Origin: Longimicrobium sp.
Lineage (GTDB): Bacteria > Gemmatimonadota > Gemmatimonadetes > Longimicrobiales > Longimicrobiaceae
Length of the DNA: 64,000 nucleotides
Assembly: GCA_036377595.1 (NCBI GenBank)
Contig: DASUYB010000108.1
Coordinates: 62,001 to 126,000, forward strand
Direction of reading: 5' to 3'
Shown here in pieces: positions 10,183 through 64,000 of the stretch (position 1 is its first letter; each line of letters begins with the position of its first letter). Below the pieces are notes generated by a model. That model was not told the DNA's origin. It worked only from the letters and a program-made list of their open reading frames with translations, and ran no database searches. Position numbers and translations under genes: made by a program.

Positions 10183-10339
10183 CGATCACGTGTACGGCGG
10201 CCCGGTAGGGGGCGCCGGATTTGAATCCAGGTAACTAGTCCTAAGTCCTGAGTCCTAAGTCCTAAGTGCTGAACGTCACGACAGATGGCACGGTGCCATT
10301 GACCACTTGGGACTTAGGACTTGGGACTTGGGACTTCTT
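10183..10339 (-). repeat. Heptamer hairpin in NRPS intergenic gap
   Basis: The 157-base gap between two NRPS genes is mostly an imperfect inverted repeat. The left arm, 10237-10273, has CCTAAGT/CCTGAGT units; the right arm, 10304-10336, has ACTTGGG/ACTTAGG units. A central palindrome ATGGCACGGTGCCAT lies between them. It could be a mobile palindrome, an attenuator or an mRNA-stabilising hairpin. No T-run follows. Confidence 0.75.
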
Positions 10340-33424: not shown

Positions 33425-33723
33425 GTGGATGTTCCCCGGCGTCGGTGAGAACGCTTGGGACCTTGTTGGTGAGTGCTGGTGCTCAGTGCCGGGTGCGACC
33501 GGCTCCGCGTCGCGCGCACTGGCGTGTCGTCCTGCACCTGCGTGCCGGGCTTTCAGTCCCGGTTCCTGAATGGGCTGCCCGAGCCCTGGCGTTCGGGTCC
33601 AGCGGGATCTCTCACGCTCTTCGTGCAGAGATCCGGTGCATCACGGCCACAAACCGGCGGCTGACGCCGCAGCAACAACCACGGGAAGCCCCGCAAACCG
33701 CGCGAGGCTGTTCGGCTCGGTCG
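33425..33723. other. Intergenic gap with repeat remnants
   Basis: No gene is visible between the two multi-module NRPS genes. Bases 33470-33500 hold degenerate GTGCTCAGTGCC heptamer-like units. Bases 33595-33640 hold an imperfect inverted repeat (GGGATCTCTCACGCTCTTCG with TGCAGAGATCC). The remainder (ACAAACCGGCGGCTGACGCC and onward) I cannot assign. Confidence 0.5.
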
Positions 33724-36700
33724 TCAATCACCGCTCGCGCAGGCGGACGTCCATTCATCCTCCGTGGACGCATGATGCCCAGCGTGCTCGGCACTCGGCA
33801 CTTCCGCGTCCGACAGCCGCCCGTTCAGCGCCGCCCTCGCCTCCTCCTCCGACATCCCCAATCCCTCCAGCAGCGCGTCGAGCGAGCGGGCGCGGAGGCG
33901 ATCCACGCGGGCGGCCAGGTCGGCCAGCCGCGGGAAGTCGAAGACGTCGCGCAGGGGGAGCGTCACGTCGAGCCGGTCTTGCATCGCCGCAACCAACCGC
34001 ATCCCGGCGAGGGAGTGGCCGCCCAGCGCGAAGAACGAGTCGCCGGGGGACACGTGCGGCACGTCCAGCAGCTCGCGCCACACCGCCGCCAGCGCCCGCT
34101 CGGTGTCCGTCCACGGGCGCGCGGCGCCGGCGGCCGCGGCGGGGGCGGGAAGCGCGCGGCGGTCCACCTTGCCGCTGCCGGTGAGCGGGAAGGCGTCCAG
34201 CGCCACGAACGCGCCGGGCACCATGTAGTCCGGCAGCCGCTCGCGCAGGTGCGCGCGCAGCTCCGCCGGCTCCGGCGCCGCGCCGCCCGCCGCGGCGACG
34301 ACGTAGGCCACCAGCCGCGCGTCGCCGCCGTCGTGGCGCACGATGGCAACGGCCTCGGCCACGCCGGGATGCGCCAGCAGCGCGCTCTCCACCTCGCCCG
34401 GCTCGATGCGGAAGCCGCGCAGCTTCACCTGCTGGTCGAGGCGGCCGAGGTACTCGAGAACCCCGGTGCGCGAGTGCGTGAGTGCACGAGTGCGCTGGTC
34501 CCGCGCGGATGCGGATGCCGCGCCGGCATCACGCACTTCCGCACTCCTGCACTCACGCACTTCGGTTTCCCTCCACCGCGCACGATCACCGGTGCGGTAC
34601 ATCCGCGCGCCCGGCTCCACCGAGAACGGGTCGGGTGCGAAGCGCTCGGCCGTCAGCGCCGGACGGTTCGCGTATCCCCGCGCCACGCCCGCGCCGCCCA
34701 GGTACAGCTCGCCGGGAAGGCCCGCCGGCACCGGGCGCATCCACTCGTCCAGCACGTAGGCGCGCGTGTCGGCCACCGGCCGCCCGATCGCCGGACGCGC
34801 ATCTCCCTGCTCCACCTCGGCCCAGGCGGCGTAGACGGTGACCTCGGTGGGGCCGTACAGGTTGCGGACGGTGCGCACCGTTTCCGTCGCCAGCAGCTGG
34901 TCCACCAGCGCGCCGGGGAGCGCCTCGCCGCCCAGGTTCAGCGTCGTCAGCCCGGCGGGGAGCGCGCCCAGGCGCAGCAGCTCGGCCGCGGCGGTGGGCA
35001 CCATGTACGCCGACCGCACCTCGTCTCCCGCCACGTCCAGCGCGTTCTCCACCAGCACCAGCGTGCCGCCGCGGCAGAGGGTGCCGAACACCTCGGCCAC
35101 GGAGACGTCGAAGGAGAACGAGGTGGAGGCCAGCACCGCCGCCCGCTCCTCGCCCGCCAGCGTCGCGTGCGTCCACTCCAGCAGGTGGGCCACGGCGCCG
35201 TGCTCCACCATCACCCCCTTCGGCGTGCCCGTGGAGCCGGAGGTGAAGAGGACGTAGGCCAGGGACGAGGGGTCGATGGAGACGTTGGGATCTTCCGCCG
35301 TCCCGGCATCCGTCTCCTCATCCAGCACCAGCGCGGGGAGATGGTCGGGAAGGCGCCCCGCGATCTCGCCGGTGGTGATGACCGCCACCGCGTCCGCATC
35401 GGCGAGCACGGTCGCGAGCCGCGCGGACGGGTACGCCGGGTCGAGGGGGATGTACGCCGCGCCCCCCTTCATCACCCCCAGCATCGCGGCGATCGCGTCC
35501 GGCGTGCGGGGGAGGCAGACGCCCACCCGCGCGTCGGGGCCCGCGCCCAGCGCCCGCAGCCTCCGCGCGATGCCGTTCGCCCGCGCGTCCAACGCGCCGT
35601 AGGTGATGGTCTCGCCACGGAAGCGGATGGCCGGCGCGTCCGGCTGCGCCGCCGCGCGCGCCGCGAAGGCGCGGGGGAGGGGGACGAAGCCGCCGGCGTG
35701 CGCCGGGCCGCGGCTCCACGCCTCCAGCCGCTCGCGGTCCGCGTCGGTCAGCAGGTCCACGCGCAGCGGGTGCGCATCCGGGTCCGCGCAGACCACGTCG
35801 AGCAGGTGGCGGAAGTGCGCGGCCAGCCGCTCCACCGTGGCCGCGTCGAAGAGGTCCGCGTCGTACTCGATCGCCCCGGCGACCCGGCCGTCCGCCTCGC
35901 GCAGCTCGAAGGAGAGGTCGAACTTGGCGGCGCGTGGGCTCACCTCCATCTCCTCCGCGCGCACCCCGTCGAGCCGCAGCGCCGCGGGCGGCAGGTTCTG
36001 CAGCCCGAACAGCACCTGGAACACCGGGCCGTGGCTCAGGCTGCGCTCCACCCGCAGCTCCTCCACCATCCGCTCGAACGGCAGGTCCTGGTGCGCGTAC
36101 GCGTCCAGCGTCGCGCCTCGCACCCGCGCCAGCAGCGCGCGGAACGAAGGATCGTCCTCCAGCCGCGCGCGCAGCGGGAGCGTGTTGACGAAGAAGCCGG
36201 CGATCTCCTCCGCCTCGCCGTGGTGGCGCCCGGCGATGGGCGAGCCGACCACCACGTCGCGCTGCCCCGACCACCGCGCCAGCACCGCCTGGAAGGCCGC
36301 CAGCAGCGTCATGAACAGGGTGGCGCCCTCGTGCGCGGCCAGCGCGTGCACCCGGCGCGTGAGCCCCGGCGTCAGCGAGAAGGGGAGGAGCGCGCCGCGG
36401 TTGGCGGGGAGCGCGGGGCGCGGCCGGTCCGTCGGCAGCTCCAGCAGCGCGGGGGCGCCCTCCAGCGCGGCGCGCCAGTACGCCAGCTGCGACTCGAGCC
36501 GGTCCCCCGCCAGCCATCCCCGCTGCCACGCCGCGAAGTCCGCGTACTGCAGCTCCAGCGGCGGGAGATGGGGATCGTCCCCGCGCAGGGCGGCCGCGTA
36601 GGCGTCGGACAGGTCGCGCAGGAGCAGCCCCCAGCTCCACCCGTCGCCCACGCTGTGGTGGACGTTCAGCGCGAGCACGTGCTCGCGCTCGCCGCGGCGC

Positions 36701-39700
36701 AGGAGGGCGGCGCGCAGCAGCGGCCCGCGCTCCAGGTCGAACGGGCGGAACGCCTCCGCCGCCAGCCACGCCTCCTCGTCGTCGTCACCGGCGACGGGGA
36801 CCACGGGGAGATCGATCTCCCACGGCGCGGCGATCTCCTGCACCGGCGCGCCGTCCGCCTCGCGGTAGCGCGCCCGCAGCGCCTCGTGCCGCGCGACCAC
36901 GGCGGTGAGCGCGCGGCGGAGCGCATCGGCGTCGACCGTCCCCTCCAGACGATGGCGCACGGGCATGTTGTACAGGCCGCGGCCGGGGAGGAGGCGCTCC
37001 AGGAACCAGAGCCGCTCCTGCGCGAAGGAGAGCGGCAGCGCCCCGCCGCGCGCGATCGGCTCCATCGGCGGCAGCGGCTCGGGCGCGCCGGCGGCGGCCG
37101 CCTCGACGTGGGCGGCAAGGGCGCGCGGGGTGCCCGCCTCGAACACCGCCCACAGCGGCAGGTCCACGCCGAACGCCCGGCGGATGCGCGACGCCATCTG
37201 CGTGGCCAGCAGCGAGTGCCCGCCCAGGCGGAAGAAATCGTCCTCGGCGCCCACCCGCTCCACGCCCAGCAGCGCGGCGAAGATCCCCGCCAGCATCTCC
37301 TCCGCCGGGGTGCGCGGGGGAACGTAGGCGTCGGCCTCGGCCTCGGGCGCGGGAAGCGCGCGGCGGTCGGGCTTGCCGTTGGGCGTCAGGGGGATCGCGT
37401 CCAGCACCACGTACGCCGAGGGGACGAGGTGCGCGGGAAGCCGCGCCGCCAGCAGCGTCCGCAGCTCGGCCGCGCCCGGCGCCGAGCCGTTGCGGGGGAC
37501 GACGTAGGCCACCAGCCGCTTGTCCGCGCCGCCGTCCGCGCGCGCGATCACCAGCGCGTCGCCCACGGCGGGGTGCTGCTTCAGCGCGGCCTCGATCTCC
37601 CCCGGCTCCACCCGGAAGCCGCGCACCTTCACCTGCTGGTCGATGCGCCCCAGGAACTCCAGCGTCCCGTCCTCGCGCCGCCGCACCCGGTCGCCCGTGC
37701 GGTACAGGCGCGCGCCGGGGCGGTCGGAGAAGGGATCGGGGACGAAGCGCTCCGCCGTCAGCCCCGGCCGCCCCAGGTAGCCGCGCGCCACCCCGTCGCC
37801 GCCTGCGTACAGCTCGCCGGGGACGCCGAGCGGGCAAGGACGGCCGTGGCGATCCAGCACGTAGGCGGTGGAGTTGGCGATCGGACGGCCGATGGGGATG
37901 GAGACACGCGACCGCGCCACCGGCCGCCCCGTGTCGACCGACGGTCCCGCGGTGTCGTCGGGGACGACGGTGTGGCAGCAGGAGTAGGTGGTGTTCTCCG
38001 TGGGCCCGTAGCCGTTGATCACCCGCAGCCGGGGGTGTGCCTCCAGCACCCGCTCCACGTGCGCCACGGAGAGCACGTCGCCGCCGGCCAGGAGCTGGCG
38101 GAGATGCCCGAGCGACTCGATCTCCTCGTCGACCATGCGGTGGAAGAGGCCGGAGGTCAGCCAGAGCGTGGTGACGCCCTTCTCCTCGATCAGCGCGCCG
38201 ATCTCCCGCAAGCTGGGCTGCCGCGGCGGGGCGACGACGAGCCGCCCGCCGTTCACCAGCGGCGCCCAGATCTCCATCAGCGACGGGTCGAACGCCAGCG
38301 CGGCCAGCAGCAGGAAGGTCTCGCCCGCGCCCAACTCGGCGTAGTCCGTCCCCCGCACCAGGCGCACGACCCCGCGGTGCGGCACCATCACCGCCTTGGG
38401 CGTTCCCGTCGATCCCGAGGTGTAGGTGACGTAGGCCAGGTCCTCGGGCCCGACGTCGAAGGTGGGGACGGCGACCGTATCTCCATCCCCATCCTGAAGA
38501 TCGGGAGATTCGACGCCCGCGCCGGCGCGGACCACGGCGCCGGAGTATCCCGCCAGCGCCGACGGCACCTCGTCCCCCACCACCAGCACGGAGATGCCGG
38601 AATCGGCCACCATGAAGGCCAGCCGCTCGGGCGGGTACTCCACGTCGAGCGGCACGTACGCCGCGCCCGCCTTGAACACGGCCAGCAGCGCCACGACCAA
38701 CTCCGCCGAGCGCTCCATCGCCACCCCGACCCGCGCCTCCGGCCCCGCGCCCGCGGCGGCGAGGCGGCGGGCCAGGCGTCCGGCGCGCGCGTCCAGCTCC
38801 GCGAAGGTCAGGCGCACGTCGCCCGACTCGACCGCGATCGCATCCGGCGTGCGCGCCGCCTGGCGTGCGACCAGGGCGTGGACGGTGGTGTCGCGCTCGT
38901 AGTCCGTGCGCGTGCGGTTGCACGCCTCGACGACGAACGCCCGCTCCACCGCGTCCGCCATCTCCAGCCGCGAGCGCGGCGTGTCTGGCGCCGCGGCGGC
39001 GTTCTCCAGCAGCCCCAGGTAGTGGCGGACGATGCGGCGGACGGTGGTCGCGTCGAAGAGGTCGGTGGCCCAGCTCACCTCCAGCCGCAGCCCGCCGTCC
39101 GCCTCCTCGTAGGTGTCGAAGGTCAGGTCGAACTGCGCCGTCTCGATCCGCGCGTCCAGCGCCTCCACCGCGCACCCGGGGAAGTCCGGAAGCTCCATCC
39201 GCGCGTTCTGCAGCGTCATCACCGCCTGGAACACGGGGTTGCGCCCGGGGTCGCGCGGCAGCCGCAGCTCCTCCACCAGCCGGTCGAACGGCAGCTCCTG
39301 GTGGCCGAACGCCGCCAGCGCCGCGTCGCGCTCCGCCGCCACCAGCGCGCGGAACGCCGGGTCTCCGGGGACGGCGGTCAGCAGGGGGAGGAGGTTGACG
39401 AAGAAGCCGACCAGCGGCTCCACCTCGGTGCGCCCGCGGTTGGCGAACGGGGTGCCGATCACCACCTCGTCCTGCCCCGCGTGGCGGGACAGCACCAGCC
39501 GCAGCGCCGCCAGCAGCACGTGGAAGAGCGTGCCGCCCTCCGCCCGCCCCACCTCGCGCAGCTGCTCCGCCAGCGCGGCGGGGACGGCCCAGCGCGCCCG
39601 CTCGCCGCGGTGGCTTTCCACGGCGGGGCGGGGGCGGTCGGTGGGGAGCTCCAGCGCGGGCGGCGCGCCCTCCAGCGCGCGGCGCCAGAAGGCCAGGTGC

Positions 39701-40395
39701 CGCTCCAGCCGCTCGCCGCGCAGCCACTCGTCCTGCCAGAGCGCGTAGTCCGCGTACTGCAGGGCGAGGGGGACCAGGGGATCGGGCCGCCCCTCCGCGA
39801 ACGCGGCGTACAGCTCGCCCAGCTCGCGCTGCATCACCCCCGTGCTCCACCCGTCGGTGGCCACGTGGTGCATGGCGAGGAGGAGCACGTGCTCGTCCTC
39901 CGCCAGCCGCAGCAGCCGCGCGCGGAAGACAGGCCCGCTCTCCAGGTCGAACCCCGTGTTCGCGTCCGCGTCCACCCGGCGCCGCGCCTCGGCCTCGCGC
40001 GCGTCTTCGCCGAGGGCGGAGAGGTCTTCGACGGGAAGGGGGATGGAGATGGGGGGATGGACGACCTGTACCGGCCCACCCTCGCGCTCGGCGAAGGTGG
40101 TGCGCAGCGTCTCGTGCCGCGCCCGCAGCGCGCCGAGCGCCCGCTCCAGCGCGGCCACGTCCAGCGGCCCGCGGATGCGCAGCGCCCGCGCGACGGCGTA
40201 GGCCGCGCCGCCGGGGTGCATCCGCTCGATCACCCACAGCTGGCGCTGCGCGTGCGAGAGCGGCGCGGCGGCGCCGGGGCGGGGCCGCGCGCGCAGGGCG
40301 GGGACGTCGGCACGGGGCGCGGCGCCGCGCAGCCGCTCCAGCAGCTTGCGCCGCTCGGGCGAGAGCCCTTCGAGCCGCGTCTGCAGCTCCGTCAT
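33724..40395 (-). CDS. Nonribosomal peptide synthetase, two C-A-PCP modules
   Basis: ATG 40395 follows GAGG by 9 nt and lies 13 nt after the loading gene's stop, giving 2223 residues. Module 1: C (MHHVATDGWS near 175), A (near 658), PCP (GGHSL near 1058), pocket code DPMLLGGTY by eye. Module 2: C (VHHSVGDGWSWG near 1246), A (near 1717), PCP Ser2128, code DVAMNGLVY. I cannot assign either code; the second recurs twice elsewhere in the cluster. Module 1 keeps a normal REDGT turn before LEFLGRIDQQ, while module 2 has a 38-residue repeat-coded insert. The last 26 or so residues (from LSDAEVPSAEHAG) are encoded by GCACTCGGCACTT-type repeat DNA, suggesting that repeat invasion extended the C terminus. 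Confidence 0.95.
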   Translation of the reverse strand: MTELQTRLEGLSPERRKLLERLRGAAPRADVPALRARPRPGAAAPLSHAQRQLWVIERMHPGGAAYAVARALRIRGPLDVAALERALGALRARHETLRTTFAEREGGPVQVVHPPISIPLPVEDLSALGEDAREAEARRRVDADANTGFDLESGPVFRARLLRLAEDEHVLLLAMHHVATDGWSTGVMQRELGELYAAFAEGRPDPLVPLALQYADYALWQDEWLRGERLERHLAFWRRALEGAPPALELPTDRPRPAVESHRGERARWAVPAALAEQLREVGRAEGGTLFHVLLAALRLVLSRHAGQDEVVIGTPFANRGRTEVEPLVGFFVNLLPLLTAVPGDPAFRALVAAERDAALAAFGHQELPFDRLVEELRLPRDPGRNPVFQAVMTLQNARMELPDFPGCAVEALDARIETAQFDLTFDTYEEADGGLRLEVSWATDLFDATTVRRIVRHYLGLLENAAAAPDTPRSRLEMADAVERAFVVEACNRTRTDYERDTTVHALVARQAARTPDAIAVESGDVRLTFAELDARAGRLARRLAAAGAGPEARVGVAMERSAELVVALLAVFKAGAAYVPLDVEYPPERLAFMVADSGISVLVVGDEVPSALAGYSGAVVRAGAGVESPDLQDGDGDTVAVPTFDVGPEDLAYVTYTSGSTGTPKAVMVPHRGVVRLVRGTDYAELGAGETFLLLAALAFDPSLMEIWAPLVNGGRLVVAPPRQPSLREIGALIEEKGVTTLWLTSGLFHRMVDEEIESLGHLRQLLAGGDVLSVAHVERVLEAHPRLRVINGYGPTENTTYSCCHTVVPDDTAGPSVDTGRPVARSRVSIPIGRPIANSTAYVLDRHGRPCPLGVPGELYAGGDGVARGYLGRPGLTAERFVPDPFSDRPGARLYRTGDRVRRREDGTLEFLGRIDQQVKVRGFRVEPGEIEAALKQHPAVGDALVIARADGGADKRLVAYVVPRNGSAPGAAELRTLLAARLPAHLVPSAYVVLDAIPLTPNGKPDRRALPAPEAEADAYVPPRTPAEEMLAGIFAALLGVERVGAEDDFFRLGGHSLLATQMASRIRRAFGVDLPLWAVFEAGTPRALAAHVEAAAAGAPEPLPPMEPIARGGALPLSFAQERLWFLERLLPGRGLYNMPVRHRLEGTVDADALRRALTAVVARHEALRARYREADGAPVQEIAAPWEIDLPVVPVAGDDDEEAWLAAEAFRPFDLERGPLLRAALLRRGEREHVLALNVHHSVGDGWSWGLLLRDLSDAYAAALRGDDPHLPPLELQYADFAAWQRGWLAGDRLESQLAYWRAALEGAPALLELPTDRPRPALPANRGALLPFSLTPGLTRRVHALAAHEGATLFMTLLAAFQAVLARWSGQRDVVVGSPIAGRHHGEAEEIAGFFVNTLPLRARLEDDPSFRALLARVRGATLDAYAHQDLPFERMVEELRVERSLSHGPVFQVLFGLQNLPPAALRLDGVRAEEMEVSPRAAKFDLSFELREADGRVAGAIEYDADLFDAATVERLAAHFRHLLDVVCADPDAHPLRVDLLTDADRERLEAWSRGPAHAGGFVPLPRAFAARAAAQPDAPAIRFRGETITYGALDARANGIARRLRALGAGPDARVGVCLPRTPDAIAAMLGVMKGGAAYIPLDPAYPSARLATVLADADAVAVITTGEIAGRLPDHLPALVLDEETDAGTAEDPNVSIDPSSLAYVLFTSGSTGTPKGVMVEHGAVAHLLEWTHATLAGEERAAVLASTSFSFDVSVAEVFGTLCRGGTLVLVENALDVAGDEVRSAYMVPTAAAELLRLGALPAGLTTLNLGGEALPGALVDQLLATETVRTVRNLYGPTEVTVYAAWAEVEQGDARPAIGRPVADTRAYVLDEWMRPVPAGLPGELYLGGAGVARGYANRPALTAERFAPDPFSVEPGARMYRTGDRARWRETEVRECRSAEVRDAGAASASARDQRTRALTHSRTGVLEYLGRLDQQVKLRGFRIEPGEVESALLAHPGVAEAVAIVRHDGGDARLVAYVVAAAGGAAPEPAELRAHLRERLPDYMVPGAFVALDAFPLTGSGKVDRRALPAPAAAAGAARPWTDTERALAAVWRELLDVPHVSPGDSFFALGGHSLAGMRLVAAMQDRLDVTLPLRDVFDFPRLADLAARVDRLRARSLDALLEGLGMSEEEARAALNGRLSDAEVPSAEHAGHHASTEDEWTSACASGD
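34459..34572 (-). repeat. Octamer-hairpin insert in A7-A8 loop, site 7
   Basis: This is the longest copy: 114 bases (38 codons) between YRTGDRARW and LEYLGRLDQQ. The octamers are of GTGCGCGA/GTGCGTGA/GTGCACGA type, more degenerate than at sites 1-5, with a spacer around 34500-34530. Confidence 0.85.
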
Positions 40396-40408
40396 TCGCG
40401 CGACCTCG

Positions 40409-42424
40409 TCACGGCTCCGGGAACCCCGCCGCCGGCTCGGACAGCAGCGCCGCCACCTCCTCGTCGGAGAGCCCGTCCACGTGCTCCAGCAGGCGCAGGA
40501 GCTCGGCGTCGTGCTCCGCCTGCAGCGCCGCGTCGACGGCGGCGGCCAGGGAGGCCAGCGTGGGCGCGTCGAACACCTGCCGCAGCGACAGCTCCACGCC
40601 CAGCCGGTCGCGCACCCGCGCCGCCACCTGCGCGGCCAGCAGCGAGTGCCCGCCCAGGTCGTAGAAGTCGTCGTCGGCGTACACGTGCTCCACCCGCAGC
40701 ACCTCGGCCCAGACGGCGGCCAGCTCCACCTCCGTCTCCGTCCGCGGCGCCGTCCCTCCCGCGCGCCCGGCGGCGGGCGGGGGAAGCGCGGCACGGTCCA
40801 CCTTGCCATTCGGTGTCAGGGGGAAGACGGGGAGCGTCACCACGGCCGAGGGCACCAGGTACTCCGGCAGCCGCTCGCCCACCCACTCCCGCAGCGCCGC
40901 GCCCGCCCCCGCGCCGAACGACGCGCCGGGGAAGGGAACGGCGTACCCCACCAGCCGGCGGTGCCCCGGCTCGTCCTCGCGCACCAGCACCACCGCGTCG
41001 GCCACGTCGGGGTGGCCGCGCAGCGCCGTCTCGATCTCGCCCGGCTCCACCCGCCAGCCGCGCAGCTTGATCTGCCCGTCCAGCCGGCCGACGAACTCCA
41101 GGACCGAAGTGCGTGAGTGCGCGAGTGCGCGAGTGCGTTCGGGCTCGCGAGTCTCCGGCGCACTTCCGCACTCGCGCCCGTCCGCACCGTCCGTCCACCG
41201 CACCCGGTCGCCCGTGCGGTAGAGGCGCGCGCCGGGCTCGGCGGAGAAGGGGTCGGGGATGAAGCGCTCGGCGGTGAGCGCGGGGCGGCCCACGTAGCCG
41301 TGCGCCAGGCCGTCGCCGCCCACGTACAGCTCGCCGTCGCCGGCGGGATCCATCGCCGCGTCCAGCACGTGGGCGCTGGTCTGCGCCACCGCGCGGCCGA
41401 TCGGCACCGTGTCGGCGCCGGCGGGCACCTCGCGCACCCGGTGCCAGGTGGCGAAGGTGGTGCACTCGGCGGGGCCGTACATGTGCAGCAGGCGCCGGGG
41501 CGCGCCCGCGGCCAGCACCCGCCGCACCGCCTCGGGGTCCGCCGCCTCGCCGCCGAACAACAGGTTCGTCACCGGCGCGAAGGCCGCGGGCTCCGCGCGC
41601 GCCACCGCGTTGAACAGCGCGGTGGTCAGGAACACCGTGGTCAGCCCCCGCTCGCGCACCGCCGCGGCCAGCGCCGCGGGGTGCAGCGCCACCTCGCGCG
41701 GCAGCCAGACCAGGGTGGCGCCGCTCAGCAGCGTGCTCCAGATCTCGAAGGTGGCCGCGTCGAAGGAGGTGTTGGAGAGCTGCGACACGCGGTCGCCCGG
41801 GCCCAGGCGCAGGTAGTCGGCCCCGCGCGCCAGCCGCGCCACCCCGCGGTGGGTGATCGCGATCCCCTTGGGCGTGCCGGTGGAGCCCGAGGTGTACACC
41901 ACGTACGCCTCGCTCTCGCCGAACGCCGCCGCGCCGGCCTCGCCGCGATCGCGCGTGGCGGCGTCGCCCTCGTCCAGCGCCACGATGGCCACCCGCTCGC
42001 CCGGCTCCAGCCCCGCGTCGGCCGCGCGCTCGACGACGAGCGCCGCCAGCCGCGAATCGCGCCGCATGAAGGCGCGCCGCTCGGCGGGATAGGCCAGGTC
42101 GAGGGGAACGTACGACGCGCCGGCCTTGAGCACCGCCAGCATCGCAGTCACCAGCGCGGGCGAGCGCTCCAGCGACACCCCCACCCGGCCGCCGGGGCGC
42201 ACCCCCACGGCCTGGAGCCGGCGCGCGAGCCGGTTGGCGCGCGCGTCGAGCTCGCCGTACGACACCGTGTCGTCTCCCCACTCCAGCGCCGGCAGGTGGG
42301 GATGCGCGCCCGCCACCTCGCCGAAGAGGGCGGGGAGCGACGCTTCGCGCGCGTACGGGGCCGCGTGGGGCAGGATGTCCTCGCGGTGGCGCTGTAGGAG
42401 CGGTACGGCGGACGCAGTGTGCAT
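40409..42424 (-). CDS. NRPS loading module, A-PCP
   Basis: The protein has 671 residues and no N-terminal condensation domain, so it looks like the initiation module. The A domain shows YTSGSTGTPKG near residue 175, FDAATFE (core A4), MYGPAEC (A5) and YRTGDRVRW (A7). The pocket code read by eye is DAFLLGMTF: Asp235 is present, so an ordinary alpha-amino acid with a hydrophobic side chain is likely, but I cannot name it. The carrier shows LGGHSLL with Ser594. The C-terminal LSDEEVAALLSE motif resembles the PKS tail and may be a docking element. It is the first gene of the visible minus-strand run and faces the ABC exporter. A 31-residue repeat-coded insert lies in the A7-A8 loop. Confidence 0.94.
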   Translation of the reverse strand: MHTASAVPLLQRHREDILPHAAPYAREASLPALFGEVAGAHPHLPALEWGDDTVSYGELDARANRLARRLQAVGVRPGGRVGVSLERSPALVTAMLAVLKAGASYVPLDLAYPAERRAFMRRDSRLAALVVERAADAGLEPGERVAIVALDEGDAATRDRGEAGAAAFGESEAYVVYTSGSTGTPKGIAITHRGVARLARGADYLRLGPGDRVSQLSNTSFDAATFEIWSTLLSGATLVWLPREVALHPAALAAAVRERGLTTVFLTTALFNAVARAEPAAFAPVTNLLFGGEAADPEAVRRVLAAGAPRRLLHMYGPAECTTFATWHRVREVPAGADTVPIGRAVAQTSAHVLDAAMDPAGDGELYVGGDGLAHGYVGRPALTAERFIPDPFSAEPGARLYRTGDRVRWTDGADGRECGSAPETREPERTRALAHSRTSVLEFVGRLDGQIKLRGWRVEPGEIETALRGHPDVADAVVLVREDEPGHRRLVGYAVPFPGASFGAGAGAALREWVGERLPEYLVPSAVVTLPVFPLTPNGKVDRAALPPPAAGRAGGTAPRTETEVELAAVWAEVLRVEHVYADDDFYDLGGHSLLAAQVAARVRDRLGVELSLRQVFDAPTLASLAAAVDAALQAEHDAELLRLLEHVDGLSDEEVAALLSEPAAGFPEP
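41102..41194 (-). repeat. Octamer-hairpin insert in A7-A8 loop, site 8
   Basis: These 93 bases (31 codons) have left-arm octamers GTGCGTGA/GTGCGCGA and a right arm containing CGCACTTCCGCACTCGCGC. The arms are the most degenerate of the eight copies, but the position is identical. Confidence 0.85.
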
Positions 42425-56897: not shown

Positions 56898-59492
56898 CTG
56901 AGCAGAAACCAGCCGAAATCCGGCCTGCACCGCCTGCACGCGCTGACCCCGCTGTTCGGGATCGCGCTGTTCGCGTTCGCGCTGTGGCTGCTGCACCGCG
57001 AGCTGCGCAACTACCACTACGCCGACCTGGCGCGCGAGCTCCGCAACATCCCGCGCGCGCGGCTGTTCTGGGGGGTGGCGCTCACGCTCGTGTCCTACGC
57101 GGTGATGACGCTGTACGACGCGCTCGGCGTGCGCTACGTGCGGCGCCGGCTGTCGTACGGGCGCATCGCCATGGCGTCGCTGGTGGGCTACGGGATCAGC
57201 ATGACGCTGGGCTTCCCGCTCCTCACCGGCGCGCCGCTGCGCTACCGGATGTACTCGCGCTGGGGGCTGTCCGCGGGCGAGATCGCGCGCATCATCGGCT
57301 TCTACAGCACCACCTTCTGGCTCGGCGTGCTGTCCGTCGGCGGGCTGTCGTTCCTCCTCGATCCCCCGCGCCTCCCGCCCGACTTCCCCGTCGACCACGC
57401 GTGGCTGCGGCCCATCGGCGCGCTGCTGCTGGTGGCGCTGGTGGCCTACCTCGCGCTGTCGGCGCTGGGCGCGCGCATCACCGTCCGCGGCTACCGCATC
57501 GAGCTGCCGTCGCTGTGGATGGCCATCGCCCAGGTGCTCTCGTCGTCGCTCGACTGGGTGCTGGCCGCGGCGGTGCTGTACGTCCTCCTCCCGTCGTCGG
57601 CGCCGTCGTTCCCGGCGTTCTTCGGGATCTTCCTGGCCGGGCAGATCCTCGGCCACGCCAGCCACGTTCCCGGCGGGCTGGGCGTGTTCGAGTCGGTGAT
57701 GCTCTTCTTCCTCACCCCGCGCGTCCCCGCGCCGGTCGTGGTCGGCGCGCTGCTGGCGTGGCGCGCGATCTACTACCTCCTCCCGCTGGCGCTGGCGGTG
57801 GTGACGCTCGCGGGGCACGAGCTGCGCCGGCTGCACACGCGGATGCGCGGCCCCGAGCCGATGGCGGCGTCGTTCTCGGCCATGGCGCCGCAGCTGCTGG
57901 CGGTGACGACCTTCTTCGGCGGGACGATCCTCCTCTTCTCCGGGGCGACGCCCATCGAGCGCTCGCGGCTGGGCGCGCTCCACGCCGTCATCCCCCTGCC
58001 GGTGAGCGAGCTGGCGCACCTGCTGGCCAGTGTGGCCGGGGTGATGCTGCTCCTGCTCGCGCGCGGGGTGCAGATGCGCCTCCACCGCGCCTGGCGCTGG
58101 GCCGCGCTCCTGCTGGCGGCGGGGATCCTCCTCTCCCTGGCGAAGGGGCTCGACTACGAGGAGGCAGGGGTGCTGACCGCCCTCCTCGTTCCCCACCTGG
58201 CCAGCCGCAGCCGCTTCCACCGCCGCGCGCCGGTGCTCGACGAGCCGTTCACCGCGGCGTGGCTGGCGGCCATCGGCGTGGTGCTTACGGCCACGGCGTG
58301 GCTCGGCTTCTTCGCCTACAAGCACGTCCGCTACGGCGCGGAGCTCTGGCTGCGCTTCGCGCCGGACGCCGACGCGTCGCGCTTCCTCCGCTCCTGCGCG
58401 GCCATCGCCGTCGTGCTCGCGGCCTTCTTCGCCGCGCACCTCCTCCTGCGCCGCCGCCACGCCCCGCCGCATCTCCCGACGGGGGACGAGCTGGCGCGGG
58501 CGCGGGCGGTCATCGCCGCGTCGCCGCGGGCGGAAGCGCACCTGGCGCTGCTGGGCGACAAGCCGCTGATCTTCAGCCCGTCGCAGCGCTCGTTCGTGAT
58601 GTACGGCACCACCGCGCGTAGCTGGGTGGCGCTGGGCGATCCCGTGGGGCCGCCGGAGGAGCGCGAGGAGCTGGCCTGGCGCTTCCGCGAGGAGGCCGAT
58701 CGCCGCGCCGCGTCGCCCGTCTTCTACCAGGTCGATCCCGAGTGCCTCCCGATCTATACCGACATGGGATTGACGGTGATGAAGGTGGGGGAGGAGGCCG
58801 TCGTGAAGCTCGACGAGTTCACGCTCGAGGGCGACGAGCGGCGCGCGCTCCGGCGCACCTGGAAGTCCGTTCGGCGCCACGGGGTGACGTTCGAGCTGGT
58901 GCCGGCGGAGGACGTCCCCGCGCTGCTGCCGGAGCTGCGCGCCGTCTCCGACGAGTGGCTGGCGCGCAAGCGGACGCGGGAGAAGGGGTTCTCGATGGGG
59001 CGCTTCGATCCCGCGTACCTCGCGCACTTCCCGCACGCGGTGGCGCGGCTGCACGGGCGGGTGATCGCGTTCGCCACCGTCTGGCTGGCGGCGGAGGGGA
59101 CGGAGATGACGGTGGACCTGGTGCGCTGGTCGCGCTTGGCGCCGCCCAGCGTGATGGAGTTCCTGTTCGTGGAGTTGATGCGGTGGGGATGCGAGCGCGG
59201 CTGGCGCGAGTTCAACCTGGGGATGGCGCCCCTTCCCGGGCTGCAGAAGCGCGAGCTGGCCGCGGTCCTCTTCCGCCACGGCGAGCACTTCCGCGACCTG
59301 CACGGCCTGCGGCGCTACAAGGAGAAGTTCGGCGCCGAGTGGAGACTCAAGTACCTCGCCGCGCCCGGCGGCCTCGCGCTCCCCCGCATCCTCGCCGACG
59401 TGGCCGAGCTGATCGCGGGGAACGATGGGGATGGCGACAAGGTGCGGCGAAGCAGGCGGCGCGAGCGGGAGAAGGCGGCGCGGGAGACGTGA
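56898..59492 (+). CDS. mprF: MprF: phosphatidylglycerol lysyltransferase/flippase
   Basis: The N-terminal two-thirds is a multi-helix membrane domain (GFPLLTGAPLRYRMYSRWG, HVPGGLGVFESVMLFFL) that flips aminoacyl-phosphatidylglycerol. The C-terminal third is the cytoplasmic aminoacyl transferase (VALGDPVGPPEER, KEKFGAEWRLKYLAAPGG). The product is a positively charged lipid that protects against cationic peptides. The start is odd: homologous-looking sequence (LFGIALFAFALWLLHREL) continues upstream of the first GTG at 57075. But between the in-frame TGA at 56823 and that GTG there is no ATG, GTG or TTG, only CTG codons such as 56898. From CTG 56898 the protein has 864 residues, a normal MprF length; from 57075 it has 805 and loses the first helix. 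Either CTG is used or the start was lost. Confidence 0.9.
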   Translation: MSRNQPKSGLHRLHALTPLFGIALFAFALWLLHRELRNYHYADLARELRNIPRARLFWGVALTLVSYAVMTLYDALGVRYVRRRLSYGRIAMASLVGYGISMTLGFPLLTGAPLRYRMYSRWGLSAGEIARIIGFYSTTFWLGVLSVGGLSFLLDPPRLPPDFPVDHAWLRPIGALLLVALVAYLALSALGARITVRGYRIELPSLWMAIAQVLSSSLDWVLAAAVLYVLLPSSAPSFPAFFGIFLAGQILGHASHVPGGLGVFESVMLFFLTPRVPAPVVVGALLAWRAIYYLLPLALAVVTLAGHELRRLHTRMRGPEPMAASFSAMAPQLLAVTTFFGGTILLFSGATPIERSRLGALHAVIPLPVSELAHLLASVAGVMLLLLARGVQMRLHRAWRWAALLLAAGILLSLAKGLDYEEAGVLTALLVPHLASRSRFHRRAPVLDEPFTAAWLAAIGVVLTATAWLGFFAYKHVRYGAELWLRFAPDADASRFLRSCAAIAVVLAAFFAAHLLLRRRHAPPHLPTGDELARARAVIAASPRAEAHLALLGDKPLIFSPSQRSFVMYGTTARSWVALGDPVGPPEEREELAWRFREEADRRAASPVFYQVDPECLPIYTDMGLTVMKVGEEAVVKLDEFTLEGDERRALRRTWKSVRRHGVTFELVPAEDVPALLPELRAVSDEWLARKRTREKGFSMGRFDPAYLAHFPHAVARLHGRVIAFATVWLAAEGTEMTVDLVRWSRLAPPSVMEFLFVELMRWGCERGWREFNLGMAPLPGLQKRELAAVLFRHGEHFRDLHGLRRYKEKFGAEWRLKYLAAPGGLALPRILADVAELIAGNDGDGDKVRRSRRREREKAARET

Positions 59493-59652
59493 GCGTTCCG
59501 GGTGATGAAGCGCTGGTCCTCACATCGCAACCAGGTGAACGCGTGCGTCTATTCGTCGCTTGACGTCCGGGTGATCCCGCCGCTATCTCGATACGGGTGG
59601 ATTCGGCGATGCACGGCCTTGTGCTGGCTACCACACACACCCTCTCGCATCC

Positions 59653-60033
59653 ATGCCGCAGCTCGTCAACTCCCGCCATGTGCTGGCCGTGCGCGACCTC
59701 GCCGCGTCGACGCGGTTCTACACGGACGTCCTGGGGCTCACGCGAGATTTCGGCGATGGCTCCGACGGCTGGAGCTTTCTGTCCCGCGGTGCCTTCCGCG
59801 TGATGCTGGGTGAGTGCCCCGCCACGACCCCCGCCGGGGAGCTGGGCGACCACTCGTGGTACGCGTATGTGACTGTCGAGGGCGTCGACGCGTTCCACGC
59901 CGAGGTGGCGGCGCGTGGCGCCGAGATCCTGTCGCCGCTGGCCACGAAACCGTGGGGGCTGCGCGAGTTCAGCCTGCGCACGCCGGACGGCCACCGGCTC
60001 ACCTTCGGCGAGCCGACGCCCGCCACCAGCTAA
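59653..60033 (+). CDS. VOC (glyoxalase/bleomycin-resistance fold) protein
   Basis: The 126-residue protein is one VOC domain made of two beta-alpha-beta-beta-beta units: NSRHVLAVRDLAASTRFYTD at the start and WYAYVTVEGVDAFHAEVAAR in the second half. His, Glu and related metal-ligand positions (SRHVLAV, DGHRLTFGEP) are partly present. Proteins of this size act as lactoylglutathione-lyase-like enzymes, dioxygenases or antibiotic-binding proteins; the substrate is unknown. The stop TAA lies only a few bases before the first attC-like element, as in integron cassettes. The leader segment ATACGGGTGGATTCGGCGAT at 59590 reappears with one change at 60137, in front of the next cassette gene. Confidence 0.8.
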   Translation: MPQLVNSRHVLAVRDLAASTRFYTDVLGLTRDFGDGSDGWSFLSRGAFRVMLGECPATTPAGELGDHSWYAYVTVEGVDAFHAEVAARGAEILSPLATKPWGLREFSLRTPDGHRLTFGEPTPATS

Positions 60034-60034
60034 C

Positions 60035-60131
60035 GCCGCCTGACAACCGGCAGCAGGGGATGCGGGGCCGTCCATGATTCGCGGATGAGAGTCTTGCGCG
60101 CCGGCCCCGGACCCCTGACCCTTGGGGCGTT
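60035..60131 (+). other. attC-like element 1
   Basis: It starts GCCGCCTGACAACC. It has a stem GGGGATGCGGGGCCG with CGGCCCCGGACCCC (one extra-helical A, one mismatch) and ends CTTGGGGCGTTTCC. The right core is diverged (GTTTCCT instead of GTTRRRY). It directly follows the VOC stop. Confidence 0.6.
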
Positions 60132-60232
60132 TCCTTATACGGGCGGATTCGGCGATTCGTGCGGCAGGATCGGTACGGCAACGTGTTCTCCTGCCCCGGA
60201 AAGCGCAGCAGGCGGTTTGCGTGTTGGTCGGA

Positions 60233-61318
60233 ATGCCGTCCAGTGAACAACAAGTTAGGTGGCGCCCTCACCTATCAAGGAAAGGTACCCTTACGTCTAC
60301 TCTCTCCAGGTTCATTCGAACCACTTGGCTTCTCTCTGCACCTGAGCGTCTCGAACTGCCGAACCAACGCGTGTCAATCCGAATGGTGTCGGCCAGCGAA
60401 AGTGCGCAGATGACTGAACTTGCGCGCAAGCGAAACGTTTTCGCCCGCCACTCGTGGGAGAATTCTTTCTACATAGAGCGTATCGGGCAACTGAACGGTG
60501 CGACCGTTGTTGAAGTGTTCGTGGAGGGAAATCTTGACGACGTGCTCCCCAAGGCGCGGCGGACCGCAGAGATTCTCGAGCGACTTGCTATCGTGTCCTC
60601 GACACTTGGTCTGCGCCGCCTGAGGACTCATCAACTGCTAGCTATCAGCGCGCATCGCCGGTATGGGTTTGATCTCGCGATCTCTCCAGGTTTTGAATAT
60701 TTGCGCTCGTCGTCGCGACGTGATGCTCAACCGAGGGGCATACCCGTCACTACGAGCTTTGTCCGCCGATTTGTCCGTTGCGGCTTTCCATCGCTTCTCG
60801 CTGTGTTGAGAACCGACGGTGAACTGGCGAAGCGCCTCTGGCAGGGAGTTACCTAGCTGTTCGAATCCCGATTGGAGCCATCCGCAACCGCGGCGGTGGT
60901 CAAATCCGCAATTGCATTGGAGTCGCTTCTCATTGCGAACGACTCCGAGAGTCTTCGAGGTCCTCTGTCTGAACGTGCTGCCTTTCTCCTCTCAGACTCG
61001 GCGATTACGCGGCGACGGATAAGCAAGGGCGTGAAAGCGTTCTACGACCTACGCAGTGCAGTCGTACATGGTGGACGTCGTCGATCGGCGCTCTCGCCCA
61101 CAGAAGTGATTGAGGGTGTTGATCGTATCATTGTTCTTCTGATGCTCACTCTCGCGGCAAATTCGAGTGCGTGGCCCAAGTTCGACAGTGCGGTCGAAGC
61201 GGTTGAGGACTTGAAGTGGGGAGCTTCGTCTGCGAAGATCGCCCGGCCATTTCCTAGCTCACATCTCACAAGGGCAGTGCAGTTACTAGAGAGTCCCTCG
61301 CGCCGAAGCTCCACCTAA
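60233..61318 (+). pseudogene. Apea/HEPN-like gene interrupted by an in-frame TAG
   Basis: One continuous reading frame is broken only by TAG at 60854-60856 (ACC TAG CTG TTC GAA). The first part has about 207 residues from ATG 60233 (start uncertain). The second, if restarted at TTG 60872, has 148. The second part has the pattern of Apea-like HEPN domains: AAVVKSAIALESLL, then FYDLRSAVVHGG, where Arg and His fit the R-x(4-6)-H motif, and a later VDRIIVLLMLTL helix. Such domains are common in defence or RNA-cutting proteins. Codons are visibly less GC-rich than in the neighbours. The final TAA lies inside the next attC-like core (CACCTAAC). It could be a decayed gene, a stop read through, or two separate chains. 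Confidence 0.6.
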
Positions 61319-61408
61319 CAATCGGCTGCAGGGATGCGGGGCCGTCCATGCTTCTCAGCCGACCAAAGTCTTGCGCGCCGGTCCCGCACCCCTAACCGTT
61401 GGGGCGTT
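61311..61408 (+). other. attC-like element 2
   Basis: The left core ACCTAAC (61313-61319) fits RYYYAAC and contains the upstream gene's stop codon. The stem GGGATGCGGGGCCG pairs with CGGTCCCGCACCCC. The right end is GGGGCGTTCGGC, one base off GTTRRRY. Confidence 0.65.
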
Positions 61409-61480
61409 CGGCCGCTGGGCAAGCATCGCGGCAGCCGCAGGTGACCCTCCCCGCGGCTGCCGTGTGTTTCACCCCCAGCC

Positions 61481-61690
61481 GGTTCGGCGGCGAGGCCTCT
61501 CGCGCGCCCTTCCCATAGACGGTGAGGCACACCAGCTCATCGTCGGGATCGCGGACCTCCCACCAGCGGCTCTTCGTCCGCTTGACGACGGTGTAGCCGG
61601 GCTTCGCGGCACCACCCCCATGCAGGTGTATCGGCCTACCATCCGCTGCGAGTGAGATCCTGACCTCTCCCCCGCGTGGCCACTCACCTC
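61481..61690 (-). pseudogene. Remnant of a small unknown protein
   Basis: On the minus strand a stretch reads GGEVRISLAADGRPIHLHGG, then KPGYTVVKRTKSRWWEVRDP and DDELVCLTVYGKGARE, which looks like genuine protein sequence. No good start codon precedes it, and after GARE the frame turns to low-complexity sequence, suggesting a frameshift. Both ends are therefore broken. It points against the other genes of the array. The rest of 61409-62025 shows nothing I can support. Confidence 0.35.
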
Positions 61691-62025
61691 CCTGCGTGTC
61701 TGGCCGTGACCTGGTTCGACGGTCGTCTGGCGCTCTGCCCGAAGCCGTGGACGGGCGAGCGCCCGATGTTGTCGGACCTGATAAACCGGCCCTCGTGGTC
61801 GCGGTCTGCCCTCGACGCTGATCACCGCGTCCAGGGCAAACCACATCGCGGAGAGACGCACTACGTCAGCCGCCGCGCTCGACGCCGCCTCGCGCGGAAC
61901 CCCATGATGTCGCGCAGACGCAGCCCAGCGGCTGCGACGTGTAGTACTTGTCGTGCCTGACGCGTTCATGGAGTGGAACCACGGCGAAACCGATTGACCA
62001 CGATCGCACCACAAGGCGAAACCGC

Positions 62026-63357
62026 ATGATCTCACGTCGTGAATGGCTTGGCCTGTCCCGCGGCGCCGGGGCTATCGCTTGTCTCGCCGTTCTCCTTTCA
62101 TGCGGCGGAGAGCCGACTACGCCGCCGGCCTCTCTTCCGGTTACGCCTCCTGCGCAGCAGGAGATGCCGATCACCGGTGCCGCGGTGCCGGGAATGACGT
62201 CGTACGATCAGGTCATTCCCGATTTCATGCGGAAGTACAACATTCCCGGTGGCGCGGTTGCCGTGATGCGCGACGGCAGGCTGATCTACGCGCGCGGCTT
62301 CGGTTACGCGGACGTCGAGAACAAGACGCCGGTGCAGCCGGACGCGCTGTTCCGGATCGCCAGCGTGTCCAAGACGCTCACCAGCGCCGCCATCATGAAG
62401 CTCGTCGAGGAGGGCAAGCTCAAGCTCGACGATCGCGTGGCGCCACTCATTGCGCACCTCACCCCTGCGCCGGGGGCGACCGTCGATTCGCGGTGGGAGC
62501 AGATCACCATTCGGCACCTGCTCAACCACACGGGGGGCTGGGACCGTAACAAGCCGAATGGTGGATTCGACCCGATCGATCGGCCGGCGATCGCTGCGGC
62601 CGCGGTCAACGCGCCCGCGCCGGCGTCGAGTGAAACGTTGATCCGCTACATGAAGGGAATGCCGCTCGACTTCAATCCGGGCGAAAAGTTCGCCTACTCG
62701 AATTTTGGTTATATCATCCTCGGCCGCGTGATCGAGCGTCTGAGCGGCATGCCGTACGAGCAGTACGTGCGCAGCCGCGTGCTGCAGCCCGTGGGCGCCA
62801 ATCGCACGCAGCAGGGCAAGTCGCGCATGGCCGACGCGCTCGCGGACGAGGTGAAGTACTATTTCCCCGGCTTCGGCGCGAACGCGCCGCTGGTGCCTTC
62901 CGTTTTTCCGGGCGAAGGCCTCGTGCCGCTCAACTATGGCGGCTTCTACCTCGAAGCGGGTGATGCAAGCGGCGCCTGGGTATCGTCGACCGTCGATCTC
63001 CTGCGATTCCTGGGCGGCGTCGATGGCCGCGCCGATCGTCCGGACATCCTCAGGGCTGACCTGGTCGCGGAGATGACCGGCAGCGGCCCTGACCAATGTG
63101 CCGGTGGGGCGTGCTATTACGCATTTGGATGGTGGGTTCGCCCAACCCAGGGCGACGCGACCTGGTGGCACACGGGAACGTTGCCCGGCACGACGAGCAT
63201 ACTCGTGCGCACGTATGACAACTTCTCGTGGGTCGGTCTGTTCAACACTCGCTCCCTGACAGCCAATCTCGAAGTCGAAGTCGATGCCGCGCTCCGGAAT
63301 GCGTTTGCGGGCGTCACCTCATTTCCAACGCACGACCTGTTTTCGACCTTCCAATGA
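62026..63357 (+). CDS. Tat-type lipoprotein, beta-lactamase-family serine hydrolase
   Basis: From ATG 62026 the protein has 443 residues. The N terminus MISRREWLGLSRGAGAIACL carries a twin-arginine-like motif (SRREWL), followed by a hydrophobic stretch and the lipobox LLSC, so a Tat-exported lipoprotein is likely. An open frame upstream to 61948 exists, but its extra residues are not signal-like. Catalytic motifs: SxxK in FRIASVSKTLTSA, YxN in KFAYSNFGYII, and a late WHTGTLPGTTS matching the HxG box. These define the class C beta-lactamase/D-alanyl peptidase/esterase family; actual lactamase activity is not shown. It lies between two attC-like elements, with a leader of more than 600 bases, longer than usual for a cassette, so it may carry its own promoter. 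Confidence 0.85.
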   Translation: MISRREWLGLSRGAGAIACLAVLLSCGGEPTTPPASLPVTPPAQQEMPITGAAVPGMTSYDQVIPDFMRKYNIPGGAVAVMRDGRLIYARGFGYADVENKTPVQPDALFRIASVSKTLTSAAIMKLVEEGKLKLDDRVAPLIAHLTPAPGATVDSRWEQITIRHLLNHTGGWDRNKPNGGFDPIDRPAIAAAAVNAPAPASSETLIRYMKGMPLDFNPGEKFAYSNFGYIILGRVIERLSGMPYEQYVRSRVLQPVGANRTQQGKSRMADALADEVKYYFPGFGANAPLVPSVFPGEGLVPLNYGGFYLEAGDASGAWVSSTVDLLRFLGGVDGRADRPDILRADLVAEMTGSGPDQCAGGACYYAFGWWVRPTQGDATWWHTGTLPGTTSILVRTYDNFSWVGLFNTRSLTANLEVEVDAALRNAFAGVTSFPTHDLFSTFQ

Positions 63358-63460
63358 CATGAGCCGCAGAGCGTCTGAGAGCGCGGCGTAGGGGTGCGAC
63401 AACCGTAAGACCTATCCGTCTCGCGGAACTCGCGTAGGCACGGCAAACTCGTACCCCGGC

Positions 63461-63565
63461 CGCCCCCTGACAATCGGCTGCAGGGGATGCGGGGCCGTCC
63501 ATGATTTGGGCTGGCCGAAAGTCTTGCGCGCCGGCCCCGCACCCCTGACCCTTGGGGCGTTAGGC
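63461..63565 (+). other. attC-like element 3 (best preserved)
   Basis: The left end is CCCCCTGACAATCGGCTGC. The stem GGGGATGCGGGGCCG pairs with CGGCCCCGCACCCC, perfect apart from one bulged A. The right core GTTAGGC (63559-63565) is a perfect GTTRRRY. The left CCTGAC can pair with GTTAGG. Confidence 0.7.
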
Positions 63566-63632
63566 GGCACAGCCGGCTCGGCAGTGCCGTCGTGCGTGTT
63601 TGGTGTCTCGAAACCGGCGAATGGAGAACAGG

Positions 63633-64000
63633 ATGCCAGACGTGATTCCGTTCGTGACCTATGAGGACGGCATTGCCGCCCTGGAATGGTTGGCCGAGGT
63701 GTTCGGATTCACGGAGACAGCTCGCTTCACGTCTTCCGATGGGAGGCTGTCTCACGGAGAAATGTCGGTTGGGGATGGACTGATCATGTTGGCCAGTCCG
63801 TCGCCGGAGTATGAAGGCCCCAAGCGACATCGCGACCACTGCGAGATTGCCGCCTCATGGTCCGCTCTGCCATGGATCATTGATGGTGTTCTCGTCTATG
63901 TTGACGACGTCGATGAGCACTATGCTCGGGCCAAGGCCGCGGGAGCGGTTATCTTGTCTGAACCGGAAGATGGGCCGCCAGCGCGACGATATCGGGTTGA
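63633..64000 (+). CDS. VOC/PhnB-like glyoxalase-fold protein (3' end missing)
   Basis: ATG 63633 follows GGAG with 6 nt spacing, and the frame is open to the right edge (122 codons). It opens MPDVIPFVTYEDGIAALEWL with VFGFTETARFTSSDGR, then HGEMSVGDGLIMLASPSPEY, and in the second half GVLVYVDDVDEHYARAKAAG. This is the PhnB-like branch of the VOC superfamily, usually about 130-160 residues, so only a short C-terminal piece is missing. Substrate unknown. It starts about 67 bases after the perfect attC core, in the cassette orientation, and its codon use is less GC-rich than that of chromosomal neighbours. Confidence 0.8.
   Translation, partial: MPDVIPFVTYEDGIAALEWLAEVFGFTETARFTSSDGRLSHGEMSVGDGLIMLASPSPEYEGPKRHRDHCEIAASWSALPWIIDGVLVYVDDVDEHYARAKAAGAVILSEPEDGPPARRYRV

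Follow-up and report, generated by a model that had tools for sequence, protein, structure and literature searches.

Can a row of genes, each followed by a similar palindromic element on the same strand, be recognized as an integron when no integrase gene lies beside it? The question is raised by a 64,000-nucleotide stretch of Longimicrobium sp. (Gemmatimonadota; assembly GCA_036377595.1, contig DASUYB010000108.1, positions 62,001 to 126,000), which we call the window; coordinates below are those of the window unless a contig is named. A preliminary description, made from the letters of the window, proposed that three attC-like elements between 60035 and 63565 form an integron cassette array, either a cluster of attC sites lacking an integron integrase (CALIN) or the far end of an array. 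In an integron, the integrase IntI cuts the folded bottom strand of attC at the G/TT of the right core, thereby excising or inserting a gene together with its attC, and new cassettes enter at attI, behind a promoter. With a probability of about 0.93, a chromosomal integron of a Gemmatimonadetes lineage has decayed here and the region represents its leader end, a CALIN that has kept an attI-like site and a cassette-promoter-like sequence. The identification draws on homology, structure, orientation, a link to gene ends, a link to intact or broken intI, and a leader.

The attC sites

We searched for the elements with a covariance model (R1) built from 45 aligned attC copies, all of them from other genomes, which avoids circularity. 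The training set consisted of the 46 top-scoring copies (≥95 bits, none from the genome of the window) minus one with an insertion (L094:11569-11674). The structure was set by hand, because RNAalifold, when applied to the alignment, gave a different and weak structure (7 pairs, covariation term 0), which we rejected. The model therefore leans on the attC plan; attC1, attC2 and attC3 align with one another even without an imposed structure.

When the whole window was scanned with R1, filters off, the three elements were the top-ranking matches, all on the plus strand and within a few bases of the positions proposed initially, so that a covariance model, the kind of check suggested in the preliminary description, accepts each of them. 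The first, attC1, occupies 60038–60136 (R1 match 60039–60136, 87.8 bits, E 2.3e-28), with R'' GCCTGAC at 60038 and GTT at 60129. For attC2, at 61313–61413 (R1 match 61314–61413, 88.9 bits, E 1e-28), R'' is ACCTAAC and the right core, GTTCGGC at 61406, keeps GTT and has C at the first R position. The highest score belongs to attC3 (63465–63566; R1 match 63466–63566, 116.2 bits, E 1.9e-38), with R'' CCCTGAC and, as had been noted, a perfect GTTAGGC at 63559. Their reverse-strand shadows stayed at or below 21.8 bits, and the next unrelated match in the window scored 14.9 bits. A fourth site on the strand of attC3, attC4 (77.5 bits), lies beyond the window, 2.6 kb past attC3 (128105–128202 of the same contig, C108 of genome G000 in our numbering).

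The 19-base core GGATGCGGGGCCGTCCATG is common to attC1–3. With up to three mismatches allowed, it occurs three times in the window, while 0.12 occurrences are expected, and a count of three was reached in none of 100 shuffles. The BLAST identity to attC3 is 88% for attC1 and 87% for attC2. The lengths of 98, 100, and 101 nt are inside the published range of 57–142 nt (PMC2727003). Judged by their sequence, attC1–3 are homologous integron recombination sites. No Rfam family matched the window at gathering thresholds, and no tRNA was found in it. Exact matches to the attC pattern were absent from the viral collection; in the genome contig collection, there were two named matches, the metagenome-assembled (MAG) Gemmatimonadetes isolates RYN_364 and 0707_bin15.

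In the published attC plan, a conserved T of the bottom strand stands out of the L''/L' stem as an extra-helical base, and a second such base, a G of the same strand in L'', lies 6–8 nt from it (PMC2727003). We tabulated these landmarks for attC1–3 and the 45 copies from relatives; those of the relatives agree with the plan apart from the position of the second extra-helical base. R'' CCTRAC pairs with R' GTTAGG; next come an unpaired spacer and a 2-bp L helix, and then a 16-bp stem in which a single A of the top strand is extra-helical. This base, already pointed out in the preliminary description, is A in all 45 copies from other genomes (bottom-strand T). Among these relatives, 90.6% of cells are paired as proposed, compared with 33–52% when the partners are slid; by part, the R helix is 82% and the stem cells are 93% paired. 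In the window, R'' and R' form five of seven Watson–Crick pairs in attC2, five of seven and one G–T pair in attC3, and only two of seven in attC1. The right cores of the relatives contain GTT in 39/45 cases and the full GTTRRRY in 25/45, and C precedes GTT in 39/45. A stop codon triplet is found inside the left core of 34/45 relatives. The same trait was reported earlier for the second element, where the gene's TAA (61316–61318) indeed lies inside the left core ACCTAAC (61313–61319).

Array organization

Arrays were surveyed by running R1 over 51 fetched stretches (792,601 bases) and retaining matches at E ≤ 1e-4. Most stretches had been picked for already holding matches, a choice that leaves the strand result unbiased. 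There were 138 matches, 136 of them, in 42 stretches, once two reverse shadows were dropped. All 32 stretches with at least two matches were single-stranded, with a median spacing of 1128 bp. Of 84 intervals between neighboring attC sites, 75 have their best-coding frame, judged by a simple GC-by-codon-position score, on the attC strand and six on the opposite strand, while three are unclear; the median distance from stop codon to attC in the 75 same-strand intervals is 76 nt. The preliminary description likewise has each element following a gene of the same orientation.

We searched 61 genomes, including ten of the genus, and the family is present in nine of these ten. The genome of the window, a fragmented assembly (208 contigs, 96% complete), gives 13 matches at E ≤ 0.01: the reverse shadow of attC3 and 12 others, which lie on six contigs. 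Copies in both orientations throughout the genome had been named as an outcome that would speak against an array; every contig of this genome that holds more than one attC has them on one strand. At the locus itself, four attC sites lie on one strand within ∼6.2 kb and no intI over the cut-off was found in a search of the genome, the CALIN threshold being at least two attC sites (PMC9024848). Weaker matches are scattered in a genome of another genus, G013, where contig C21 has one on the plus and one on the minus strand, 8 kb apart.

Probable loss of the integrase

Integrase genes were called at the cut-off of the TIGR02249 profile. It was passed in 10 of the 61 genomes and in none of the ten genomes of the genus, that of the window included. 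Two other genera of the family have an intI over the cut-off, on G018:C347 and on G011:C522, and in both cases the accompanying attC lie on the other strand and point away from it, which is the canonical divergent layout; the match in G011:C522 spans positions 1–282 of 315. An intI is present in G010 as well, but the stretch of contig examined there has no attC match.

A survey of intI debris, which covered the ten genomes of the genus and not G014 or G015, revealed remains in five (G008:C97; G001:C70, C115, and C139; G007:C68; G005:C201; G003:C46). These are fragments, partly frameshifted or stop-bearing. In G008:C97, attC lies beside a broken intI, made of two pieces in different frames with the N-terminus unmatched. 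Fragments also lie by the arrays of G014 and G015, two other genera with the same attC family. As the fragments are broken at different points, the loss looks repeated. In G003:C46 (L092 17387-17585), N- and C-terminal intI fragments adjoin through an internal deletion and touch the start of a hydrolase cassette shared with the window.

The window holds no intI debris, and no IntI-like frame was detected at E < 0.01 within 2 kb upstream of its attI-like site, in line with the initial remark that it lacks an integrase. Two frames elsewhere in the genome were considered and rejected: an integrase-like frame on C145 is XerD-like, and a second tyrosine recombinase frame, at 12 kb of C108, matches the integron model only in part and weakly. 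We infer that attC1–3 were formerly substrates of IntI and that the array is now probably frozen or nearly so, because the locus has lost intI and the search of the genome turned up no intact copy.

The leader region

A promoter-like sequence, TTGACG-N18-TATCTC, is read at 59560–59589 on the plus strand. It is a probable cassette promoter, presumably the one named Pc, and a TTGAC/TATCT-type pair occupies the same place in most aligned leaders of relatives. Further downstream, at 60221–60260 (plus strand), is an attI-like site ending in GTCCAGTGAACAACAAGTTAGGT, 87% identical over 39 bp to the leader of G008:C97. The latter leader, with the broken intI on one side and the attC array on the other, comprises TTGACG, 17 bases, TATCTG, and an attI-like end of the GTCCACTGAACAACAAGTTAGGC type. 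By homology with it, the leader of the window is predicted to serve as attI and promoter, and the promoter would drive the first genes. Since the leader is kept (59560–59589 and 60221–60260), the window contains the near end of the array. The initial reading stands as to the cassette array and CALIN and fails as to the far end, for elements 1 and 2 enclose an attI-like site and the first gene has a promoter-like sequence just upstream of it.

The attI-like pattern has 12 sites in 7 of the 61 genomes, every site falling in one of the three genera with the strongest attC matches, and none in the reversed control. Eleven of the 12 sites have an attC on their own strand within ∼2.4 kb downstream, whereas the twelfth lies close to a contig end; intI debris lies upstream of four.

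In the window, the promoter-like and attI-like parts are separated by the cassette of attC1, composed of attC1 and a VOC/glyoxalase-family gene (59653–60033, plus strand; PF00903, E 1.1e-15). On either side of this cassette is a 20-bp leader repeat of family D8, with copy 1 (ATACGGGYGGATTCGGCGAT) at 59591–59610 and copy 2, a direct repeat on the same plus strand with 95% identity, at 60137–60156. Two leaders or platforms may abut here, intI and parts of one leader having been deleted. The repeat layout leaves attC1 upstream of the attI-like site. In G007:C68 (L098 9695-9984), a C-terminal intI fragment is located within an attC array, abutting an attC, which suggests tandem platforms.

Cassette genes shared between species

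The gene upstream of attC3, initially described as a hydrolase, is present on the plus strand at 62026–63357 and is more precisely a serine beta-lactamase/esterase-family gene (PF00144, E 2.3e-71). The stretch around it (61887–63392) is 95% identical to G003:C46, and parts of it are 82–86% identical to G001:C70, G002:C327, and G009:C1; the neighbors differ. The syntenic flank with mprF has 80–87% identity to G003. This flank is the only baseline for the divergence from G003; positions 1–12000 and 30001–42000 were unusable, because both matched many repeated places. The mprF gene, which encodes lysylphosphatidylglycerol flippase/synthetase (57075–59492, plus strand; NF033480, 831 bits, cut-off 600), forms the chromosomal flank of the array. 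Next to its syntenic ortholog in G003:C95 is an unrelated gene, and no array was found there. These observations raise the question of how cassette genes still spread between species when no intact integrase has been found.

Alternative explanations

Several points weigh against reading the locus as a former integron. Among the 45 relatives, covariation in the stem is not above that of shuffles, because the copies are too alike, and the pairing therefore rests on consistency and not on compensatory change. The second extra-helical base is approximate, the bottom-strand G being ∼9 nt away in a 3-nt/1-nt internal loop. GTT, named at first as the core shared by the three elements, is present in all of them, but attC1 terminates in GTTTCCT and departs from GTTRRRY, since what comes next is leader sequence and no cassette. 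Cassettes three and four are long, at ∼2.1 and ∼2.6 kb, and the larger of the two has three genes. The DNA folding z-scores (top/bottom strand) are −3.4/−2.0 for element 1, −0.25/−0.58 for element 2, and −1.8/−2.5 for element 3, so the folding energy of element 2 is not significant; single-sequence folding is weak evidence for attC identity and is not decisive. Identity of the shared gene stops before attC, so that the sharing demonstrates gene traffic and not IntI as its cause, and recombination was not observed in this sequence analysis. A dispersed palindromic repeat resembling attC, such as repetitive extragenic palindromes (REP) or bacterial interspersed mosaic elements (BIME), would agree with palindromic copies that are unusually alike (∼80–90%) and with single-sequence folding that does not favor the bottom strand. 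Its probability is nevertheless negligible: the elements form single-strand clusters behind same-strand genes, are few per genome, and lie beside intI and attI-like sites, and the strand and intI evidence refutes such a repeat in the main.

If a decayed integron is accepted, the decay could still be only apparent, with a working integrase encoded in the few percent that the assembly lacks or acting in trans from another replicon. Fragmentation of the assembly, the several arrays of relatives that end near contig ends, and the cassette gene with 95% identity to its G003 copy against 80–87% for the syntenic mprF region would all fit such a system, which we consider distinctly improbable in view of the ten congeneric genomes with no intI over the cut-off, the fragmentary remains in five of them, and the 2 kb upstream of the attI-like site with no IntI-like frame. 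A different proposal accepts the loss and attributes most present movement of cassette genes at these loci to homologous recombination, for which near-identical attC sites or cassette heads would provide the stretches of homology. The shared genes sit in different arrays with other neighbors, and identity ends within the cassette, not at the attC core; however, decay, deletions, or older IntI action could yield the same breakpoints, and the intI debris beside the shared gene in G003 means that IntI may have acted until recently, making this proposal tentative and rather unlikely. A broader version, in which integrons of the genus lost their integrases many times and cassette genes still cross species, either by homologous recombination at near-identical attC and shared heads or through integrases of neighbors acting in trans, seems to us quite unlikely; if true, it would be an integron system outliving its own enzyme.

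Comparison with known systems

Loss of a recognizable intI is one published route to CALINs (PMC8618304, PMC9024848). Like them, the decayed integron described here has at least two attC-bearing cassettes and no intI nearby; unlike them, it retains an attI-like and promoter-like leader, and in its relatives the same arrays stand beside intI at several stages of decay. With the sedentary chromosomal integrons of Vibrio, Xanthomonas, and Treponema it shares lineage-specific attC, chromosomal arrays, and loss in some branches (PMC3607928, PMC8352920), whereas the arrays here are short and dispersed (four sites at the locus, 12 positions in the genome), with no intact integrase found in the genus. 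In a survey of 2008, nearly one third of intI genes were pseudogenes (PMC2426708); here, none of the ten congeneric genomes has an intact intI, and the debris varies between arrays. Attachment-site sequence downstream of a cassette gene is also known from the Delta-attI cassettes of class 1 and 2 integrons, and the published attI1 core, AAACAAAGTTRRRY, resembles the attI-like site of the window (PMC12901181). Unlike in these cassettes, the site comes after an attC that is complete, which may reflect two abutting leaders or platforms.

Gemmatimonadota have already been listed as an integron carrier phylum (PMC8618304), and the 1.1-Mb replicon of Gemmatirosa kalamazoonesis has an element with more than ten attC sites (PMC9024848). 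With CALINs and intI pseudogenes already established, and with attC families usually specific to a taxon, the finding is of a known type. We found no description of this attC family and leader in the open-access literature searched, and they add a well-supported attC family with a leader to a phylum where, in that literature, integrons are listed and little described. Together, the genomes form a natural series, which starts with intI over the cut-off, in other genera of the family, passes to frameshifted and fragmented intI, and ends with none, recognizable arrays being present at every stage. Such a series allows one to ask what becomes of captured genes after the death of the enzyme, and whether cassettes spread without it.

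Other genes and repeats of the array

The frame between attC1 and attC2 (60122–61318, plus strand; listed as 60122–60856 and 60872–61318) has its stop inside attC2. An in-frame TAG at 60854–60856 cuts this frame of ∼400 codons, which may be one gene that is broken, a pair of genes, or an error of the draft. At E ≤ 1, it matched no family of Pfam or PADLOC, read-through included, and the previous label of an Apea/HEPN-like gene finds no support.

A cassette head common to cassettes of other arrays (GCTGGGCAAGCATCGCGGCAGCCG...) is located at 61406–61610, with no strand assigned, and has 70–80% identity to G014:C218, G015:C95, G015:C213, and C16 of the same genome. A shared hairpin-like head (TTAGGCCGCTGGRCAAGCATCGCGGCAGCCG...) opens different cassettes right after attI-like or attC sites in 12 places, including 61406–61460 of the window, L130 7139, L098 13453 and 14513, L134 10820, and L087 4691.

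The second VOC/glyoxalase-family gene starts at 63633 on the plus strand and runs off the window at 64000; both genes described as VOC proteins match PF00903. Past it, the contig contains an amidohydrolase gene, DinB, and attC4, and the cargo beyond the window also includes a further VOC protein and an APH-type phosphotransferase. Elsewhere in the window, positions 1–12000 and 30001–42000 have dozens of matches per related genome at 65–78% DNA identity, as in long repetitive multi-module genes.

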